NCBI GenBank assembly: GCA_026989655.1
Contig: JALSIX010000086.1
Location: 1-60,676, forward strand
Direction: 5' to 3'
Length of the DNA stretch: 60,676 nucleotides
Source: Caldilineaceae bacterium
GTDB lineage: Bacteria; Chloroflexota; Anaerolineae; Caldilineales; Caldilineaceae
Shown: in pieces, positions 12,522-21,082 of the stretch
Layout of the letters: each line of letters starts with the position of its first letter
Position numbering within the stretch: the stretch's first letter is position 1
Notes under the pieces: model-generated
What the model was told of the DNA's origin: nothing
Database searches by the model: none
The model's input: the letters and a program-made list of their open reading frames with translations, nothing else
Program-made: the position numbers and the translations under genes

Positions 12522-12855
12522 TGGTGTGCTCCGGAAAGAACTACGGCGACATCGGTATCATCGGATGGGCGTTCTCGTCATCGACATCGGCATTATGCAT
12601 GAATGATCATCAGCAGTTCACGAATTCGTAGCGGAGTCGGCATCTGAGGATGCCGACTCCAGAGGGGCGATGCCGCATCGGAATCGGTATCAGCAAAGGT
12701 GTTATGCAAAGCGGTGTCCTTGGAAACCGCCGGGAACGGCACCCCCTCTGTTTATCACAACCGGTTGCCTTTGCCAAGTTCTGCCAGGGGATGGGTTACG
12801 GTCCATCCAGGTGGTAGAGGGGAGCGGCGTCGGAGACCCCACACTGTATCCTGTG
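12522..12855. other. Intergenic region between mrpA and the SARP regulator
   Basis: No protein gene is supported. It contains copy 1 of a dispersed palindromic repeat (12611-12682), preceded by loosely repetitive 'atcgg' motifs (12550-12600). A small hairpin (GCGGT/ACCGC near 12711-12730) is also present. Nothing clear as promoter of mrpA was found. Confidence 0.5.
12611..12682 (+). repeat. Dispersed palindromic repeat, copy 1
   Basis: This stretch shares near-identical sequence and order with 20848-20922, in the same orientation. Its core is a perfect 12-bp inverted repeat (12633-12644 and 12649-12660) with a TGAG loop. Flanks are CAGCAGTTCACGAATTCGTA on the left and AGAGGGGCGATGCCGCAT on the right. 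It resembles a REP/MITE-type intergenic element. No coding capacity. Confidence 0.75.
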
Positions 12856-15800
12856 CTACCGGCCTCTGCGCCGTCGGCGCGTGTGCGGTTGCACACCGGC
12901 CTGCACCAGCGCCCTTATGTCCCGCAGCACCGTGCGTCGGCTGACTCCCAGCGCCCGGGCCAGATCGGCATCGGTGGGGACAGCGCCCTGGGCTGCCGCT
13001 TCCGCGAGCAGCCGCTGCAGCGTGTGCCGCCGACGCTCGATTTTGGAGGTGATGCGGTCGTCTTCCGGGGTGTAGAGGGTCCAGGTGACCCATGTATAAT
13101 CCTGGTCCCTCAGGGAGCGTCCCAGGGGGACATCCACACGGGCCAGGCGCACCCGCACCCGACGTGTGTGGGCCTCCAACGCGGCGCGGACGCGGCGATT
13201 CATGGGATCCCGTGCCAGGAAGCGGGCGCGCGCATCCGGCAGCAGGAGCGTGGCCAGCTCGCGCATGGCTCCTTCCGCCCGTCGCAGGTGTTCGAGCGCG
13301 GTGGCGGTATGCCCCTGGGCCAGCAGCACGCGATAGGCGGCATAGTGCACATGTTGGTGGAGGTCGGCCCGGAAGTCGGGCTGGAGCAGCGCCAGGGCCA
13401 TCTGTACGTGGCGCCAGGCCGCGTCCCCTTTTCCCTCTGCCAAGGCCACCAGGGCCAGGTGGGCCCGGGTGGCGGCCAGCGCGTCCTGTTCCCCCATGGT
13501 CTCCCAGAGGGCGCACGCCGTTTCGAAAGCCCGCTGTGACTCGGCCAGGCGGCCCATCTCCAGGAGGGTGACCCCCTGGCCGTGCAGGCTGTGGGCACGG
13601 GGAGGCCCACAGCCTGTGCCGCGGGCCAGGGCAAAGGCCTCGTTGAAGCAGGCCAGGGCATGCTCCAGCTCTCCCAGCTTGTAGTGGGTGAGGCCCACAT
13701 GGCACAGCCCCAGCGCGATCCGCACCGGATTGTCCTCCGCTCGGGCAAGGGCCAGGGCCTGGCCTTTCAGTTCGAGAGCTGCCTCGTAATCTCCCAGGGT
13801 ATCTGCCAGCGCGCCCAGATGGGTTAGGCTGACCTCTTTCATCCGGTGGTCGCCCATCCTGCCGCTGTGGGCTAAGGTGCGTTCCCAGAGGGCTCGGGCT
13901 TCGGGGTAACGGCCTGCCCTCTGGAGGGCGATGGCCAAGTTGCTCGCGGCACGCAGTTCGTGGTGCAGGTTGCCGATGGCTTGCTGGGCCTCCATGCTTC
14001 GGGTGTGGTAGACGATGGCCTCCTGGAGCCGACCGTGTCGTTGGGCCTGGATGGCCAGCATGCCTTCCACCCAGGCCACGCCGGGGTCGTCGCCCAGTCG
14101 GGCGTAGCGGTCGCGGGCCTGTTGAAGCCATGCATGGGCTCGGCCATACGCTCCTCGATCCTGCGCGGCGCGGCCGGCTATCTCCAGCAAGCGCGCTTCC
14201 TGGCGCAGATCTCCGATCCGGCGGGCCAGGGGAAGAGCGGCCTGGGCAGTGGCCTGGGCCTGGGAGAAAGCGCCTGTACTCCACTCCAGGTTGGCCTGGT
14301 GCCAAGCGGCCTCGGCGCGACGTCCATCGTCGTCCAGGGCCTCGGCCAGTTTCCACAGCCGGCGTATCGCTCGCCGCTGTGCCTCTCGCTGGGCGAGAAC
14401 GTCCAGGGCATATGCCAGGCCCCGGGACGCGGCGTAGCGTGCGGCATGGTCGTCGGGGGGCAATCTGGCCAGCGCCTGCTCGAAGTATCGCCGGGCCGCC
14501 CGATAGCGGAAGCGTTCCAGCGCCCGTTCCCCTGCCTGTTGGGCATAATGGGCGACTTCTGCCCAAGCGCCTGCCTGCTCCGCGTGGTGGAGAAGGGGCA
14601 GGGGGTCGTCGGGGTGGGTCTGGCGCAGGACGGAGAGCGCGCGCCTGTGCCATCCCTGGCGCTCGGACTCGGCCAGATGGGTATAGATGGTGGCCCGGAG
14701 GAGCTCGTGGGCAAAGCGATAGCCATCGTCCTCCAGGCAGATCAGCTTGGCCTGCTCGAGCTCTCCCACCAGCTTCGGCAAGGTGCGCACCGCATAGCCT
14801 GCCTGTTCCAGCATGGCCTCCCAGGTGCTGTAGTCGAACTGCAGCCCGAGCACGGCTGCTGCTTCCAGGGCGCCTCGAGCTGGGGCCGCGAGGCGGGCCA
14901 GCCGGCGCCGGATCACCTCAACCAGGAAGGGGGGCGCAGCGACGGGGTCCAGGCTGCCAGCCTGCAACAAGGTCAGCGCTAGGAGCGGGTTGCCGCCGCT
15001 TGCGGCCTCCAGCCTGGCCACCCGGACGGCGGGATAGTCGGTCACGCCGCAGGCAGCCACCATCTGGGCCAGCTCCTCGCGGTTCAGACCCTCCAGGTGC
15101 ACCACGGGGGTCCCGGCGCGATCCCAGGCCTGCACGGTGGACCAGGCGGGTTGGCCGCGCAGTTCATGCCCCCTTCCGCTGAGGACGAGCAGGACAGGGA
15201 TCTCGGCCAGTGTGCCGGCCAGGGCCTCCAGCAGGGGCCACAGGGCCGGATCCGCCCACTGGACGTTGTCCAGGATGAACAGATGGGGTGCGATCTGTCC
15301 CAGACCGTGCAACAGGTGACCCACGGCCGTGTGGAGCCGATGCCGGTCCGCGCTGCCAGGTGCCGAGGTGTCCGTGTCTGGAATGTGGGAGGGGGGAAGC
15401 ACCAGGCGGGCCGCGCTGGCCAGCCAGGCGGGTTGCATCAGTCGCGCCAGCTGTCTCCAGCGAGGTGTCGGCAGGGCCTGGATCAGGGCCTGCCGTAGAG
15501 GAGCATAAGGTGCCGGCGGACCCGGTGCCTCTTCCTTGCCCCAGGCCACCTGCCATCCACGCCAGGTCGCCGCGTGGGCCAGCTCCTCCAACAGGCGCGT
15601 CTTGCCGCTGCCTGCGTCTCCCAGCAGGACGAGGATGCCGCCCTGGCCGGCATGGGCCCGATCCAGGCGGGCCAGCAACTGCCCGCGCTCGGCCAGGCGC
15701 CCCACGAAGGGGGGGCGGTTGAAGGGGTTGTTCGTGGAGGTGGGCGCGCGGGCCTGATCCAACCCATTCTGGAGCTGTTCGGCCAGGGCCCGGGTCTCCA

Positions 15801-16491
15801 CGGCGGGCAAGACGCCTAGCTCTCGGTCCAGCACCTGTGCCAGTTCGGTGTAGGCCGCCACTGCGTCGGTCAATCTCCCCATGCCCGCCAGGGCGCGCAT
15901 GAGGCCGCGATGGGCCTCCTCGTGCAGCGGGTCGGCGCGGATCAGGCGGCGGAAGTGATGGGCGGCAGCCTGCAGGTCGCCCTGGTCCTCCGCGGTCTTC
16001 CCTAGGCGTAGGAGGCAGGCGAGGTACTGTTCGTGGAGAGCGGTGCGGAGGGAGAGGAGCCAGTCGTCGTAGAGCTCGGGCAGGAGTTCGCCGGTGTAGA
16101 GGGCAACGGCCTGTTGCAGCTCGGAGCACTCTTGGGAGGCGGCGAGCTGCTGAAACGCCCAGACGTCCACCCATAGGTCGGGGCCACTGTGCAACGCGAT
16201 GCCGTGGCGTTCCACATCCAGCCATGTGGGGCCAAGGGCCTTGCGCAGACGATGGAGGAGGGTGTTGAGGTTGCGACGCATGCGGGCCGGAGGGGCATTG
16301 GGCCAGAAGAGCTCGGCCAGCCGCTCGCGCGTGTGGGGGGCTTGAGGATACAGCACCAGGAAGGCGAAGAGGCTCTGCGCTTTGGGGCTGGAAAGCCGGA
16401 TAGGGCCCTGTGATCCCTCGATTCGCAACGCGCCGAAGAGACGGATCCGGCGCGGGCAGCTCGGAACCCGGGCACCGGTGGGGGCATACAT
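12856..16491 (-). CDS. SARP-family giant regulator: OmpR-type HTH, BTAD, AAA ATPase, TPR, C-terminal HTH
   Basis: This is a 1211-residue cytoplasmic transcription factor. Residues about 15-100 form a winged-helix of the SARP type, with RMRRNLNTLLHRLRKALG as the typical recognition/BTAD junction. Residues about 100-250 are the bacterial transcriptional activation domain. An AAA_16/NACHT-like ATPase follows, with Walker A GDAGSGKTR near residue 292 and Walker B-like LFILDNVQWAD near residue 410. Residues about 590-1080 are TPR repeats (for example GDYEAALELKGQALALA). The last 40 residues contain a second helix-turn-helix (DLARALGVSRRTVLRDIRAL) and a very basic end. The target is unknown; neighbouring surface-protein genes are the natural candidates. 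A promoter is visible at 16541-16570 and an AAAGGA site precedes the ATG. Confidence 0.88.
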   Translation of the reverse strand: MYAPTGARVPSCPRRIRLFGALRIEGSQGPIRLSSPKAQSLFAFLVLYPQAPHTRERLAELFWPNAPPARMRRNLNTLLHRLRKALGPTWLDVERHGIALHSGPDLWVDVWAFQQLAASQECSELQQAVALYTGELLPELYDDWLLSLRTALHEQYLACLLRLGKTAEDQGDLQAAAHHFRRLIRADPLHEEAHRGLMRALAGMGRLTDAVAAYTELAQVLDRELGVLPAVETRALAEQLQNGLDQARAPTSTNNPFNRPPFVGRLAERGQLLARLDRAHAGQGGILVLLGDAGSGKTRLLEELAHAATWRGWQVAWGKEEAPGPPAPYAPLRQALIQALPTPRWRQLARLMQPAWLASAARLVLPPSHIPDTDTSAPGSADRHRLHTAVGHLLHGLGQIAPHLFILDNVQWADPALWPLLEALAGTLAEIPVLLVLSGRGHELRGQPAWSTVQAWDRAGTPVVHLEGLNREELAQMVAACGVTDYPAVRVARLEAASGGNPLLALTLLQAGSLDPVAAPPFLVEVIRRRLARLAAPARGALEAAAVLGLQFDYSTWEAMLEQAGYAVRTLPKLVGELEQAKLICLEDDGYRFAHELLRATIYTHLAESERQGWHRRALSVLRQTHPDDPLPLLHHAEQAGAWAEVAHYAQQAGERALERFRYRAARRYFEQALARLPPDDHAARYAASRGLAYALDVLAQREAQRRAIRRLWKLAEALDDDGRRAEAAWHQANLEWSTGAFSQAQATAQAALPLARRIGDLRQEARLLEIAGRAAQDRGAYGRAHAWLQQARDRYARLGDDPGVAWVEGMLAIQAQRHGRLQEAIVYHTRSMEAQQAIGNLHHELRAASNLAIALQRAGRYPEARALWERTLAHSGRMGDHRMKEVSLTHLGALADTLGDYEAALELKGQALALARAEDNPVRIALGLCHVGLTHYKLGELEHALACFNEAFALARGTGCGPPRAHSLHGQGVTLLEMGRLAESQRAFETACALWETMGEQDALAATRAHLALVALAEGKGDAAWRHVQMALALLQPDFRADLHQHVHYAAYRVLLAQGHTATALEHLRRAEGAMRELATLLLPDARARFLARDPMNRRVRAALEAHTRRVRVRLARVDVPLGRSLRDQDYTWVTWTLYTPEDDRITSKIERRRHTLQRLLAEAAAQGAVPTDADLARALGVSRRTVLRDIRALVQAGVQPHTRRRRRGR

Positions 16492-16540
16492 CGCCGATTG
16501 TCCTTTCCTGGGGCTCTTCCTTGGAGCACGATGATGGATG

Positions 16541-16570
16541 ATCTTAGATTGTTGTGGGTGGCGATGTCAA
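16541..16570 (-). promoter_or_regulatory. Promoter of the SARP-type regulator
   Basis: On the minus strand TTGACA (16570-16565) and TAAGAT (16546-16541) are separated by 18 bases. The -35 matches consensus exactly. The start point would be near 16535, giving a leader of about 44 bases before the ATG at 16491. Confidence 0.65.
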
Positions 16571-16707
16571 ACCGAGGGGAAACCAGAAGGTGTACCGTGG
16601 GACAGGAGGGGAAAGGGGACCACCGGCTCCTCAGGAAAGGGGTTGGGTCCATGCATGGGAGATGTTCCTGGGGCCGTCCTGGACCCTGGGCGTAGCCGGA
16701 GATGTCT

Positions 16708-16745
16708 CCCTAAAGGCCCCGGGCCGAAACCTGGGGCCTTTAGGG
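16708..16745 (-). terminator. 13-bp perfect hairpin after the small exported protein gene
   Basis: The arms 16708-16720 and 16733-16745 are exact reverse complements with a 12-base loop. It lies directly after the stop at 16758 on the minus strand and upstream of the regulator's promoter, so it should insulate the two units. There is no long T-tract. Confidence 0.65.
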
Positions 16746-16757
16746 GATGGGTTGCCG

Positions 16758-17033
16758 TTATCGGGCTACCAGGGGCAGGTAGAGGGAATATCCGATGGCT
16801 GTGTCGTTCCAGAACCCCCCAGTCAGCGTGTAGACGCCGCCGCCCATGGTGCCCGCATCCGGTTGGCCCATGGTGCCGCTGAGGACATAGGGGCCGCCGG
16901 AGGCGGTACCGCCTCCGGCATCGACGGTGCTCCAGCGAAGGCCATAGCCGCTGTCCGCTTGGGCCAGAGCCAGGGTGGCCAGGAGGAGCAGGGCGACCAG
17001 GAGGGTATAGGGCACCGCGCGTCGTCCCCTCAT
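16758..17033 (-). CDS. Small exported protein with C-terminal LYLPLV motif
   Basis: A 91-residue protein with a clear signal peptide (hydrophobic segment at about residues 9-23, cleavage likely after ALAQA). The mature part is Gly/Thr-rich (GGGTASGGPYVLSGTMGQPD; GGGVYTLTGGFWND). It ends YSLYLPLVAR, a terminal motif I associate with exported Chloroflexota proteins; that association is from memory. The first ATG codons overlap the stop of the beta-roll gene by 4 bases, so the two are translationally coupled and probably work together at the surface. Function is unknown. Confidence 0.75.
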   Translation of the reverse strand: MRGRRAVPYTLLVALLLLATLALAQADSGYGLRWSTVDAGGGTASGGPYVLSGTMGQPDAGTMGGGVYTLTGGFWNDTAIGYSLYLPLVAR

Positions 17034-20000
17034 CGCCTACCTCCTCTGTGCTGCCGCCAGGCGAACAGGCCGACCAACAGGAGGAGGCTCGCCCCGGGCA
17101 GGAGGGTGCCTGGAACGGCCGAGGTCGGGCGGCCCTGCTCCAGCGCGCTCAGACGTTCCTCCAGGGCATCCATCCGGGCGCGCAGGTCCGCGTTCTCGGC
17201 CTCCAGCTGCGCGATCCGTGCCGTCTGCGCCTGGTTCTGTTGGTACAGCCCCTGGATGGCCGCCAGGGCCACGCCGTCGGCGTCCACGGTGGCGATGTAG
17301 GTGTCCTCCTCGCCCAGGCCGAAAGCGGCATAGAAATCCTGGGCCGTCGGTCCCATGTGGCGGATGGAGGCGTCCTGGGCCTTGTAGTTCCAGGTGGCGA
17401 TGGGCAGTTGGGCCACCTGCTCCAGCACGGCCTGGGGATCCACCGGTGCAATGTTCTCCTTGACGTTGCGGTCGCTCAGGCTGGCCCAAGTGCCGGAGCC
17501 GGCGGACAGGCGCGCGCCGGTGGTGAGATTGGAATTGGTGTAGATGTAGAAGCCGCCGGAGGAGCGGAAGATGGTACGGTTGACAGTGTTGCAGGAAACG
17601 TTGGCGTTGGTGCTGTCGCCCCAGACAAAGCAGCCGGCGCTGTTCGCGTTGGCCCGGTGGCCGGCGGCGAACGAGTAGTTGCCGCCCGCTGAATTGTCAA
17701 GCCCGCCGGGGACCGTGGCGTAGAGGCCGCCGGCCCCGTTGTCCCGGCCCCCGCCCACGGTGGCGGCGAAGCCGCTGGCGGCGTTGTCCCGGCCCCCGCC
17801 CACGGTGGCGTAGCGGGCATCGGTCGGGTCTCCATCGCCGCTCCCGGCCCGGTTGCCGCCGCCGCCGGCGATGGTGCCGTAGTCGTCGAAGATTCGGTTG
17901 TTGGTGGCGTTTGGGTTGGAGGGGTCGGAAGGCCCGCCGCCGGCGATGGTGCCGTAGGCCGCGGTGACCCAGTTGTACCCGCCGCCGCCCACCGTGGCCC
18001 TGTTGCCGCTGGCGCTGTTGTTCTGGCCGCCGCCCACGGTGGCGTTGGCGCCGCTGGCGGTGTTGTCCTGGCCGCCGCCCACGGTGGCATAGTTGCCGGC
18101 AACGGAGTTCTGCTGGCCGCCGCCCACGGTGGCATAGTCGCCGGCAACGGAATTCTGCTGGCCGCCGCCCACGGTGGCTCTGTTGCCGCTGGCGGTGTTG
18201 GTCTGGCCGCCGCCCACGGCGGCCGCAAATCCGTTGGCGTTGTTGGCGACGCCGCCGCCCACGGTGGCATAGTTGCCGGCAGCGGAATTCTGTTGGCCCC
18301 CGCCCACGGTGGCCCTGCTGCCGCTGGTGGTGTTGGTCTGGCCGCCGCCCACAGTGGCATAGGTGCCGTTGGCCGTGTTGTTGTAGCCCCCGCCCACGGT
18401 GGCATAGGAACTGCTGGCCGTGTTGTTGTAGCCCCCGCCTATGGTCGTGCCGCTGCTGTTGGCGGTGTTGCTGTCCCCGCCGCTCACCGTGGCCGCGCTG
18501 CCGCTGGCGGTGTTGCCCTGGCCGCCGCCTACGGTGGCGTAGGGGGCAGTGGTTGTGTTCCCATCGTCGCTTCCGGCGCGGTTGTTGCCACCGCCGGCGA
18601 CGGTGCCGTATTCGTCGAGAACCCGGTTGCTGGTGTTGGCCGGGTCACCGGTGTTGGATGGTCCGCCGCCGGCGATGGTGCCGTAGGCCGCGATGACCTG
18701 GTTGTACCCGCCGCCGCCCACGGTGGCGTTGGCGCCGCTGGCGTTGTTGGCAATGCCGCCGCCCACGGTGGCATAGTCGCCGGCAACGGAGTTCTGCTGG
18801 CCGCCGCCCACCGTGGCCCTGCTGCCGCTGACGGTGTTGCCCTGGCCGCCGCCCACGGTGGCGTTGGCGCCGCTGGCGTTGTTGGCAATGCCCCCACCCA
18901 CCGTGGCCCTACTGCCGTTGGCGGTGTTGCTCTCGCCGCCGCCCACGGCGGCCGCATATCCGTTGGCGTTGTTGGCGACGCCGCCGCCCACGGTGGCGAA
19001 GGAGCTGCTGGCGGTGTTGCTGTCGCCGCCGCCCACGGTGGCCGCGCTGCCGCTGGCGGTGTTGTTGCTGCCTCCACCCACCGTGGCGGAGGGTCTATCC
19101 GAAGGTGTCCCGGCCCCATCTCCGACCTGGTTGCCGTAGCCCCCGCCCACCGTGCCGTAGTTGTCGGTCACCCGGTTGTGGTCGGGCCCACCGAAGCCGT
19201 CGTCCGGCGCGCCGCCCCCGGCAATGGTCGCGCCCACCACGCCGGCCACGACGCTGTTGTCGCGGAGGCCGCCGATGAGGTTGGGGGTGTTGTCAGTGGG
19301 CTCGATACGCAGGGCGCGCAGGTTGTTGACGCGAAGTTCCAGGGCCTGGTTGTCCGCCGTGCCCAGAAAATTGGTGGTGGGATCGGTGCCGGGATTGCCG
19401 CCGAGCTTCCAGTATCGTCCATCGGTGTAGTCCACGTCCAGGGACAAGGTGACGCTGCCGGAGGTGCCGCCTCCACTGAGTCCCGTTCCGGCGTTCACCG
19501 CGGTGATGTCTCCGTTGCCCGCGTTGTTGCCGCACGCCCACTGGCTGCCGTTCCACTCGGCGATCTGGCCACTGTTGCAGGATTGGGGAAGCCGGTACGT
19601 GCCTGCCAGGCTGAGCTGGGTGCCGTTGAGGGTGAGGCCCGTGCCGGCGGTGTAGGTGGTGTCGTTATCGACCCCGTCGGCGAAGCCGGCAGGGATACCG
19701 GTCAGGTTGCTCCAGGCGGTGCTTTCCGCATAGTCCGCATAGAGGGCGTAGGGGGTGGGATGGAGGGGCTGCCGGGGGGAGAGGGGGGTGTAGGCGCTGG
19801 TGCTGTTGCCTGGCCGCACACGGATTTCGAGCCACAACGCCGAGCCGTCGAACACGTTGCCGAAATCCAGGTCGACGGTGAAGAGGCCGTTGTTGAGGAG
19901 CACATCGTCTTTGGAGAGGGTGTTGCCCACCTGGGAGCCAGAGGACGGGGCGTTGAAGAGGGCGAACTGGAAATCGTAGGTGCCGTTGGCCGGGGCGCCG

Positions 20001-20179
20001 TTGTCGGTGAGGCGTCCTTGGTAGGTGAAGGCGGTCCCCAGGGAGGTCTGGGTGTCTGTCACGGTCTGTGGCGTGGACTGTTGCGCGTGGGTGGGGCGGG
20101 AGCTTCCCAGGCCGGCGGCCAGGGCAAGCAGGAGGAAGAAGGACAACCGGATTCTCGGGAGAAGGTTGGACCAGTGCAT
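17030..20179 (-). CDS. YadA-head-like beta-roll surface protein with S74 chaperone domain
   Basis: A 1049-residue exported protein. The ATG at 20179 follows AAGGAG and begins a signal peptide (LSFFLLLALAAGLG). Residues about 40-130 contain FTYQGRLTDNGAPANGTYDF, a module common at the start of such proteins. From about residue 330 to 840 there are some 30 repeats of about 15 residues of the form ATVGGGxxNxASGxx, the left-handed beta-roll pattern of YadA heads. SDRNVKENI near residue 902 starts an S74 intramolecular chaperone domain, including RHMGPTAQDFYAAFGLG. A coiled coil follows (AQLEAENADLRARMDALEER). It ends in a hydrophobic segment plus basic tail (LLPGASLLLLVGLFAW, then RQHRGGRR). A trimeric fibre anchored in the cytoplasmic membrane is inferred. 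No YadA beta-barrel is present. Confidence 0.85.
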   Translation of the reverse strand: MHWSNLLPRIRLSFFLLLALAAGLGSSRPTHAQQSTPQTVTDTQTSLGTAFTYQGRLTDNGAPANGTYDFQFALFNAPSSGSQVGNTLSKDDVLLNNGLFTVDLDFGNVFDGSALWLEIRVRPGNSTSAYTPLSPRQPLHPTPYALYADYAESTAWSNLTGIPAGFADGVDNDTTYTAGTGLTLNGTQLSLAGTYRLPQSCNSGQIAEWNGSQWACGNNAGNGDITAVNAGTGLSGGGTSGSVTLSLDVDYTDGRYWKLGGNPGTDPTTNFLGTADNQALELRVNNLRALRIEPTDNTPNLIGGLRDNSVVAGVVGATIAGGGAPDDGFGGPDHNRVTDNYGTVGGGYGNQVGDGAGTPSDRPSATVGGGSNNTASGSAATVGGGDSNTASSSFATVGGGVANNANGYAAAVGGGESNTANGSRATVGGGIANNASGANATVGGGQGNTVSGSRATVGGGQQNSVAGDYATVGGGIANNASGANATVGGGGYNQVIAAYGTIAGGGPSNTGDPANTSNRVLDEYGTVAGGGNNRAGSDDGNTTTAPYATVGGGQGNTASGSAATVSGGDSNTANSSGTTIGGGYNNTASSSYATVGGGYNNTANGTYATVGGGQTNTTSGSRATVGGGQQNSAAGNYATVGGGVANNANGFAAAVGGGQTNTASGNRATVGGGQQNSVAGDYATVGGGQQNSVAGNYATVGGGQDNTASGANATVGGGQNNSASGNRATVGGGGYNWVTAAYGTIAGGGPSDPSNPNATNNRIFDDYGTIAGGGGNRAGSGDGDPTDARYATVGGGRDNAASGFAATVGGGRDNGAGGLYATVPGGLDNSAGGNYSFAAGHRANANSAGCFVWGDSTNANVSCNTVNRTIFRSSGGFYIYTNSNLTTGARLSAGSGTWASLSDRNVKENIAPVDPQAVLEQVAQLPIATWNYKAQDASIRHMGPTAQDFYAAFGLGEEDTYIATVDADGVALAAIQGLYQQNQAQTARIAQLEAENADLRARMDALEERLSALEQGRPTSAVPGTLLPGASLLLLVGLFAWRQHRGGRR
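17690..19160 (-). repeat. Coding tandem repeats of the beta-roll protein (about 45-base unit)
   Basis: About 30 in-frame units encode ATVGGG-type turns. Within them a longer module recurs three times: a GxIAGGG unit, an insertion with an N-R-(V/I)-x-D-x-Y-G-T motif (DNYGT, DEYGT, DDYGT), then AGSxDG-type acidic insertion. The insertions begin near 19230, 18720 and 17990. This shows duplication of a super-module, not only of the single turn. Confidence 0.85.
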
Positions 20180-20258
20180 GGGGGGACGCTCCTTGGTTGG
20201 TTCTCCACCGTGGGGTTTTGCGTTGCCACGGTGCAAGGGATACACCTGCTTTCGTCGT

Positions 20259-20290
20259 TTTGGGTCCTCTACAGTTTCGGTCGTCTACAG
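20259..20290 (-). promoter_or_regulatory. Tandem 16-bp direct repeat, candidate operator of the beta-roll gene
   Basis: Two adjacent 16-base units (20259-20274 and 20275-20290) match at 14 of 16 positions. On the minus strand they read CTGTAGAxGACCxAAA twice. They end 80 bases upstream of the ATG at 20179, a normal place for an activator site. SARP regulators bind direct repeats, and one is encoded two genes away; the link is inference. Confidence 0.45.
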
Positions 20291-20847
20291 CGGTTTGAAC
20301 TGCCATGGTTCACTTGCCGGGCACCGGAACCGTGTACCCGATTCGGGGTCGGTGCGCTGAAGGGGATGCCGTAGCGTAACATGGGGGGTGATCGCCACCG
20401 ATCCTCCGTGCGCGCGGCCCCAAGGCGAGGTGTTGTCGGGTCCTGGGCTCGGCCATTCTGGATCTAGGGTAGTGTGCGTCTATTTCGTGGGCGTCTCTTG
20501 GCTCTCTGCATTGGCGGCTGTTGTGACGGAATAGGTGGGAAGTGGGTGGTTGGTTGCGGGGGAGACAGAGATGGGTGAGGTGTTTGGGGGTGGTATTGTG
20601 ACAAAGAGGGGATCCAGCCGGCGATGACCGTGAGAGCGTCCGGAGGAGATGGATGGAGAGCAGACAAGCCCACACGGCGTGGATTCGCGAACCGGTTGGG
20701 GCTGAGGTCGGGACCGTAGCCCGCACGGCCACCATGTGGTGAGGCCCGGATTCCAAATCGCCTGGCCGCTGGGAAGGAGGAGATGCCCTTTCCCGTGTCT
20801 CGTGGACGGCGTCCCGGGCCGGCTCTGCGGTGCTCTGTATCCAGTCT

Positions 20848-20922
20848 CAGCAGTTCACGAATTCGTATTCGTAGCGGAGTCGGCATCCTCAGATGCCGAT
20901 TCCAGAGGGGCGATGCCGCATT
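20848..20922 (+). repeat. Dispersed palindromic repeat, copy 2
   Basis: It has the same order and orientation as copy 1 at 12611-12682, with a 6-base duplication (TTCGTA) before the palindrome and a few substitutions in the stem. The stem here is GGAGTCGGCAT with ATGCCGATTCC. It continues into a related short inverted element (GGAGGATGCCCACTCC, 20923-20938). Confidence 0.75.
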
Positions 20923-21082
20923 GGAGGATGCCCACTCCTCAGTTTGGCTAAAATCGTGAATTACTGAGTCTCTTTGTCCGACTGTGCGGTGCACCCGCCC
21001 CGAACGGAGCGAGTGGACGGGGTGCAATCGCTTGTGGGCCCCGGGCGGAGCGGAGAGCTGGGATGGCATACCTGGGCCGCGC

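Follow-up and report, generated by a model that had tools for sequence, protein, structure and literature searches.

The window analyzed here, a stretch of 60,676 bp from a Caldilineaceae bacterium whose genome assembly (G000) comprises 150 contigs and 4.09 Mb at 99% completeness, carries three genes on the minus strand between gdhA and an mrpA-like gene. They encode a SARP-type regulator, a small exported protein and an S74 surface protein. The initial annotation correctly recognized that exactly these three genes lie between two repeat elements in direct orientation, at 12611-12682 and 20848-20922, with the mrpA-like gene and gdhA outside. The regulator (12856-16491; 1211 aa) contains a Trans_reg_C-like region followed by BTAD, AAA_16 and TPR domains. 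The BTAD match scored 74.9 bits against a cut-off of 22.1, and Trans_reg_C fell just below its cut-off (23.4 versus 26.2). The BTAD, AAA_16 and TPR combination is shared with SARP/AfsR-like STAND regulators, but the protein differs from them in its C-terminal DUF1670/HTH region and in a score far below the AfsR equivalog cut-off. A paralogue (41%) is present on another contig of G000, C85.

The S74 gene (17030-20245) encodes a beta-roll surface protein of 1071 aa if translated from a GTG codon, although an ATG at 20179 is the likelier start. The protein is composed of a signal peptide, an FTYQGRL-type N-terminal domain, 15-aa (45-bp) ATVGGG repeats, a Peptidase_S74 domain (49.9 bits versus a cut-off of 22), a coiled coil and a C-terminal transmembrane segment with an Arg tail. 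It thus resembles other S74 (intramolecular chaperone) beta-roll proteins in having PF13884 above cut-off, a repeat-built stalk and a coiled coil. However, it differs from them in its C-terminal TM/Arg anchor and in its small exported partner, the gene for which (16758-17033, minus strand; 91 aa) overlaps the S74 stop with its start by 4 bp. The partner follows the pattern W-VDxGGG...GQPDAG...GGFW...YLPLVAR and matched no Pfam or NCBIfam model. The 45-bp repeats extend over 17600-19150 on the minus strand, where the blocks 17748-18047 and 18477-18776, shifted by 729 bp, are 80% identical. This suggests that the repeats grew by block duplication, and their copy number may be variable or mis-assembled.

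The left and right repeat elements share 89% identity over 62 ungapped bases, or about 73 bases if the right copy's 6-base insertion is taken into account, a similarity that is not due to chance. The length of 72-75 bp originally assigned to the element describes only the part that the two copies share; the copies do match, but the right element has a full length of 119 bp. It is a complete copy (20848-20966, plus strand) that consists of a 113-bp form with a 6-bp TTCGTA duplication, and its terminal inverted repeats are CAGCAGTTCACGA and TCGTGAATTACTG. Perfectly matching 5-bp target-site duplications, AGTCT, flank it at 20843-20847 and 20967-20971 (both plus strand), which implies a simple separate insertion rather than a product of recombination between the two copies. 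The left copy (12611-12682, plus strand) is truncated after 72 bp: it retains the left terminal inverted repeat CAGCAGTTCACGAATTCG and the internal palindrome, and lacks the right half with the right inverted repeat. This truncated copy lies upstream of mrpA, 89 bp from the start of the gene (the intervening DNA being 12522-12610), and might influence mrp operon transcription.

A search of G000 with the repeat revealed about 40 copies matching most of its length, distributed over many contigs and in either orientation. In all, more than 40 copies were found, mostly of 112-123 bp and without coding capacity, and 42 distinct copies were collected for analysis, 41 of which have both ends. Alignment of the copies with their flanks defined a typical unit of 112-113 bp that begins with CAGCAGTTCACGAATTCG, finishes with AAATCGTGAATTACTG and has imperfect terminal inverted repeats CAGYARTTCACGA, this motif being present at both ends of most copies. 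A perfect 5-bp target duplication was found in 18 of the 41 copies; shuffling the flanks gave 0.8 on average and at most 5 in 2000 trials. Flanking bases matched at four or more of the five positions in 30 of 41 (3.2 expected; never more than 10 in 2000 shufflings). The combination of terminal inverted repeats with 5-bp target duplications indicates that the repeat is a product of DNA transposition, and it is a miniature inverted-repeat transposable element (MITE), a non-autonomous DNA transposon of about 113 bp. Most of the copies (38 of 42) are intergenic, even though the flanks are about 85% coding according to a crude composition-based gene caller. The full copy is predicted to form strong hairpins on both strands (folding z of -4.1 and -6.3). 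Both of these properties would also be expected if the repeats were not transposons but REP-like extragenic palindromes serving structurally as terminators or mRNA stabilizers. We consider this very improbable, since exact 5-bp target duplications next to terminal inverted repeats are a hallmark of transposition, as are the internally deleted forms of 78-94 bp in which both ends are retained. The MITE hairpin may still have a secondary role in transcripts.

Outside G000, diverged full-length copies (about 73-81%) that share the ends of the G000 copies and are flanked by 5-bp duplications were found in G013, G020 and G005, and weaker diverged copies in G011. A degenerate pattern recovered the repeat core from metagenome-assembled genomes labelled Chloroflexi, Anaerolineae, Anaerolinea and Litorilinea, and from one labelled 'bacterium'; a first pattern used earlier had given no match among genome contigs, in a collection that possibly omitted the window's own genome. 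The MITE was absent from the plasmid sequences searched, nothing in Rfam scored above threshold, and no account of the family was found in the literature searched. It shares with bacterial MITEs, such as MITEAba12 (PMC6382973) and the Correia, RUP and ERIC elements reviewed in PMC2229807, its small size (113 bp), terminal inverted repeats, noncoding nature, target-site duplication, foldback potential and dispersed, mostly intergenic copies. Unlike the named MITEs, it has a 5-bp duplication and an unrelated sequence, and was seen here only in Caldilineales-like Chloroflexota.

No autonomous element with the MITE ends was detected in G000 by scans of its 150 contigs with 0 and 2 mismatches, an assembly in which contig ends are close to several of the MITE copies and from which an autonomous copy could have been lost or collapsed. 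Single occurrences of the end motif in G013 and G020 had no transposase-bearing element nearby. The only pair of ends spaced by about 1 kb (C107:84-1055) was rejected as an autonomous element: the enclosed ORF is unlike a transposase and there is no duplication. Since no such element was found, the parent transposase can only be postulated. On the same contig, an end-like MITE motif recurs at C107:1055. The DNA downstream of the MITE copies at C107:1-1100 (L099) and C10:838 onward (L014) is shared for at least about 50 bp, indicating that both copies lie within a larger duplicated segment.

The initial annotation had further suggested that the two repeats might mobilize the enclosed block. This was not supported: the repeat is found at more than 40 other, mostly intergenic sites, and bracketing of the three genes beyond chance was ruled out by simulating copy placement. 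When about 46 copies were placed at random in 4.09 Mb, with the lengths of the 150 contigs approximated by random partition, 3.5 adjacent pairs within 8.3 kb were expected. Four were observed, namely on contigs C86, C112, C122 and, with a partial copy, C133. In 84% of the simulated placements, one or more same-orientation pairs fell within 8.3 kb. The observed number of pairs being that expected by chance, the bracketing needs no explanation. We nonetheless weighed a composite transposon, in which a transposase supplied in trans would have used the outer ends of both MITEs and transported the trio as a single unit of 8.36 kb. Both of these ends are indeed intact (12611-12626 and 20951-20966), and MITE pairs forming composite-like structures are known from Acinetobacter, where class 1 integrons are likewise flanked by a MITE copy on each side (PMC6382973). 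In contrast to the Acinetobacter composites, the copies in the window are unequal, one of them truncated and the two only 89% identical over the 62 ungapped bases, and they share no outer duplication. ATCAT borders the pair on the left and AGTCT on the right, and the right copy carries AGTCT on both of its sides. Moreover, the pair spacing is that expected by chance, the trio together with the repeats was not found a second time in the relatives searched, and neither an empty site without repeats nor the whole unit at a second site was found in the genomes searched. A composite transposon was therefore rejected on the grounds of its differing outer flanks and the right copy's own duplication, and is extremely unlikely.

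The two repeats are best explained as coincidental, independent MITE insertions that did not carry the enclosed genes, and we hold this explanation as a whole with considerable confidence. The origin of the trio is a separate matter, to which the corresponding locus in relatives is informative. In three members of the same family (G005, G008 and G014), the gene order is gdhA-yccF-(eamA)-mrpA, with a gdhA-mrpA interval of 1.8-2.8 kb. A YccF-domain gene lies there in each of these genomes, and two of them also have a gene for an EamA transporter. yccF and/or eamA were found beside mrpA in five further genomes (G001, G007, G009, G011 and G013), in which gdhA was not seen adjoining mrpA. In G000, the segment 12683-21171 between gdhA and mrpA stands where these relatives have yccF and eamA. 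The G000 interval contains no remnants of the two genes, and the G000 genome contains no close homologues of them, while six control genomes were all positive. Since relatives keep yccF/eamA at the locus and G000 is without both, the trio occupies the place of the family's ancestral yccF-eamA, having replaced these genes or been inserted with their loss in a lineage-specific event. The relatives compared are members of the family, none of them of the same genus, and do not fix the breakpoints or the timing of the replacement. In the three linked relatives, no MITE match was detected between gdhA and mrpA. A relative lacking the block and retaining one repeat was looked for, but none shows this arrangement, and yccF and/or eamA are there instead. 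Of the two observations originally named as telling against a cassette, one, the occurrence of the repeat at many unrelated intergenic sites of this genome, was made; the other, relatives carrying the trio without the repeats, was not made at the gdhA-mrpA locus. What survives of the idea of a transferable cassette is the absence of the block from this interval in the three linked relatives and its lineage-specific character, whereas a role of the repeats in moving it is unsupported.

The SARP and S74 genes show no clear sign of foreign composition: GC3 was 0.81 for the SARP gene and 0.87 for the S74 gene, not clearly outside the range of the window's genes, several of which were called in wrong frames. 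Carriage by plasmids or phages was likewise rejected, as the SARP gave only partial plasmid matches with less than 60% identity, and phage matches to the S74 protein were confined to the S74 domain.

The truncation of the left MITE at 12682 may or may not mark one breakpoint of the replacement. According to one scenario, the left MITE served as an end point of the rearrangement in which yccF-eamA were deleted and the trio arrived, being cut at 12682, and the right MITE was inserted later. The left copy breaks off, its right half missing, precisely where the non-native segment begins on the mrpA side, and yccF and eamA are gone from both the locus and the genome. On the other hand, truncation may be ordinary decay, given that other partial copies exist in G000 (C119, C133 and C134), and the missing MITE half with flank ATCAT is not among these partial copies. 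We regard this scenario as unlikely, though the truncated left MITE may have had a passive role in the rearrangement. MITE copies also adjoin another SARP/surface-protein locus (C85) and an S74-like gene (C107). A broader proposal, that the MITE upstream of mrpA was the end point of the yccF-eamA swap and that the family helps to exchange surface-protein loci of Caldilineaceae, seems to us quite improbable. The second SARP/surface-protein locus with a MITE, on C85 (L153:1503-8721), contains the SARP paralogue, after which come a MITE copy (about L153:4274-4386) and, beyond it, a Calx-beta/beta-helix surface protein.

For the content of the replacing segment, the analysis covered 31 S74-like loci, chosen without regard to the small protein or the SARP, whose proteins have an N-terminal domain in common with that of the window. 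A homologue of the small protein was located directly before or after the S74-like gene at about 20 of these 31 loci, in many genera, while control DNA from G000 and related genomes, 397 kb in all, contained no match to the small-protein family. Genes for an S74-like protein and for the small exported protein make up a conserved pair in many Anaerolineae. A SARP was found beside only 3 of the 31 loci, about what the density of SARP genes gives, and enrichment of SARPs beside S74-like loci was therefore rejected; adjoining so few of them, the SARP is weakly linked to the pair. The small exported family (window 16758-17033, minus strand, and loci L250, L253-L255, L260, L262, L263, L265, L269, L270 and L277) comprises proteins of about 90-120 aa with the pattern W-VDGGG...GQPDAG...GGFW and a conserved [IVLA][YFH]LP[LVIFT] tail, e.g., YLPLVAR. 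Every small protein inspected ends with a hydrophobic, LP-containing tail, which could be a sorting signal. Such a tail also occurs on other exported proteins, such as the Calx-beta protein at L153:1503-4280 (IHLPLVSR).

Taken together, the locus most likely has two separate histories. A single family of non-autonomous DNA transposons, presumably relying on a DDE transposase supplied in trans, would have spread between the genes of this Caldilineaceae-like genome and, as diverged copies, between those of its relatives. It would have inserted twice independently to give both repeats, the left copy being truncated later. Separately, the lineage would have exchanged yccF-eamA between gdhA and mrpA for a regulator and surface-protein set, the core of which is probably a two-gene unit of the S74-like protein and the small exported protein. 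Judging from domains and gene order, the repeat-built surface protein is likely secreted and anchored to the membrane by its C-terminus, and the neighboring SARP perhaps controls its expression. These results remove the tempting reading of the locus as a transposable adhesin cassette. They describe instead a MITE family whose target duplications have been quantified and whose copies occur in several genera within a single Chloroflexota family. They also point to a surface protein and its small exported partner, itself without a Pfam or NCBIfam model, as the conserved unit of a genuine lineage-specific replacement.
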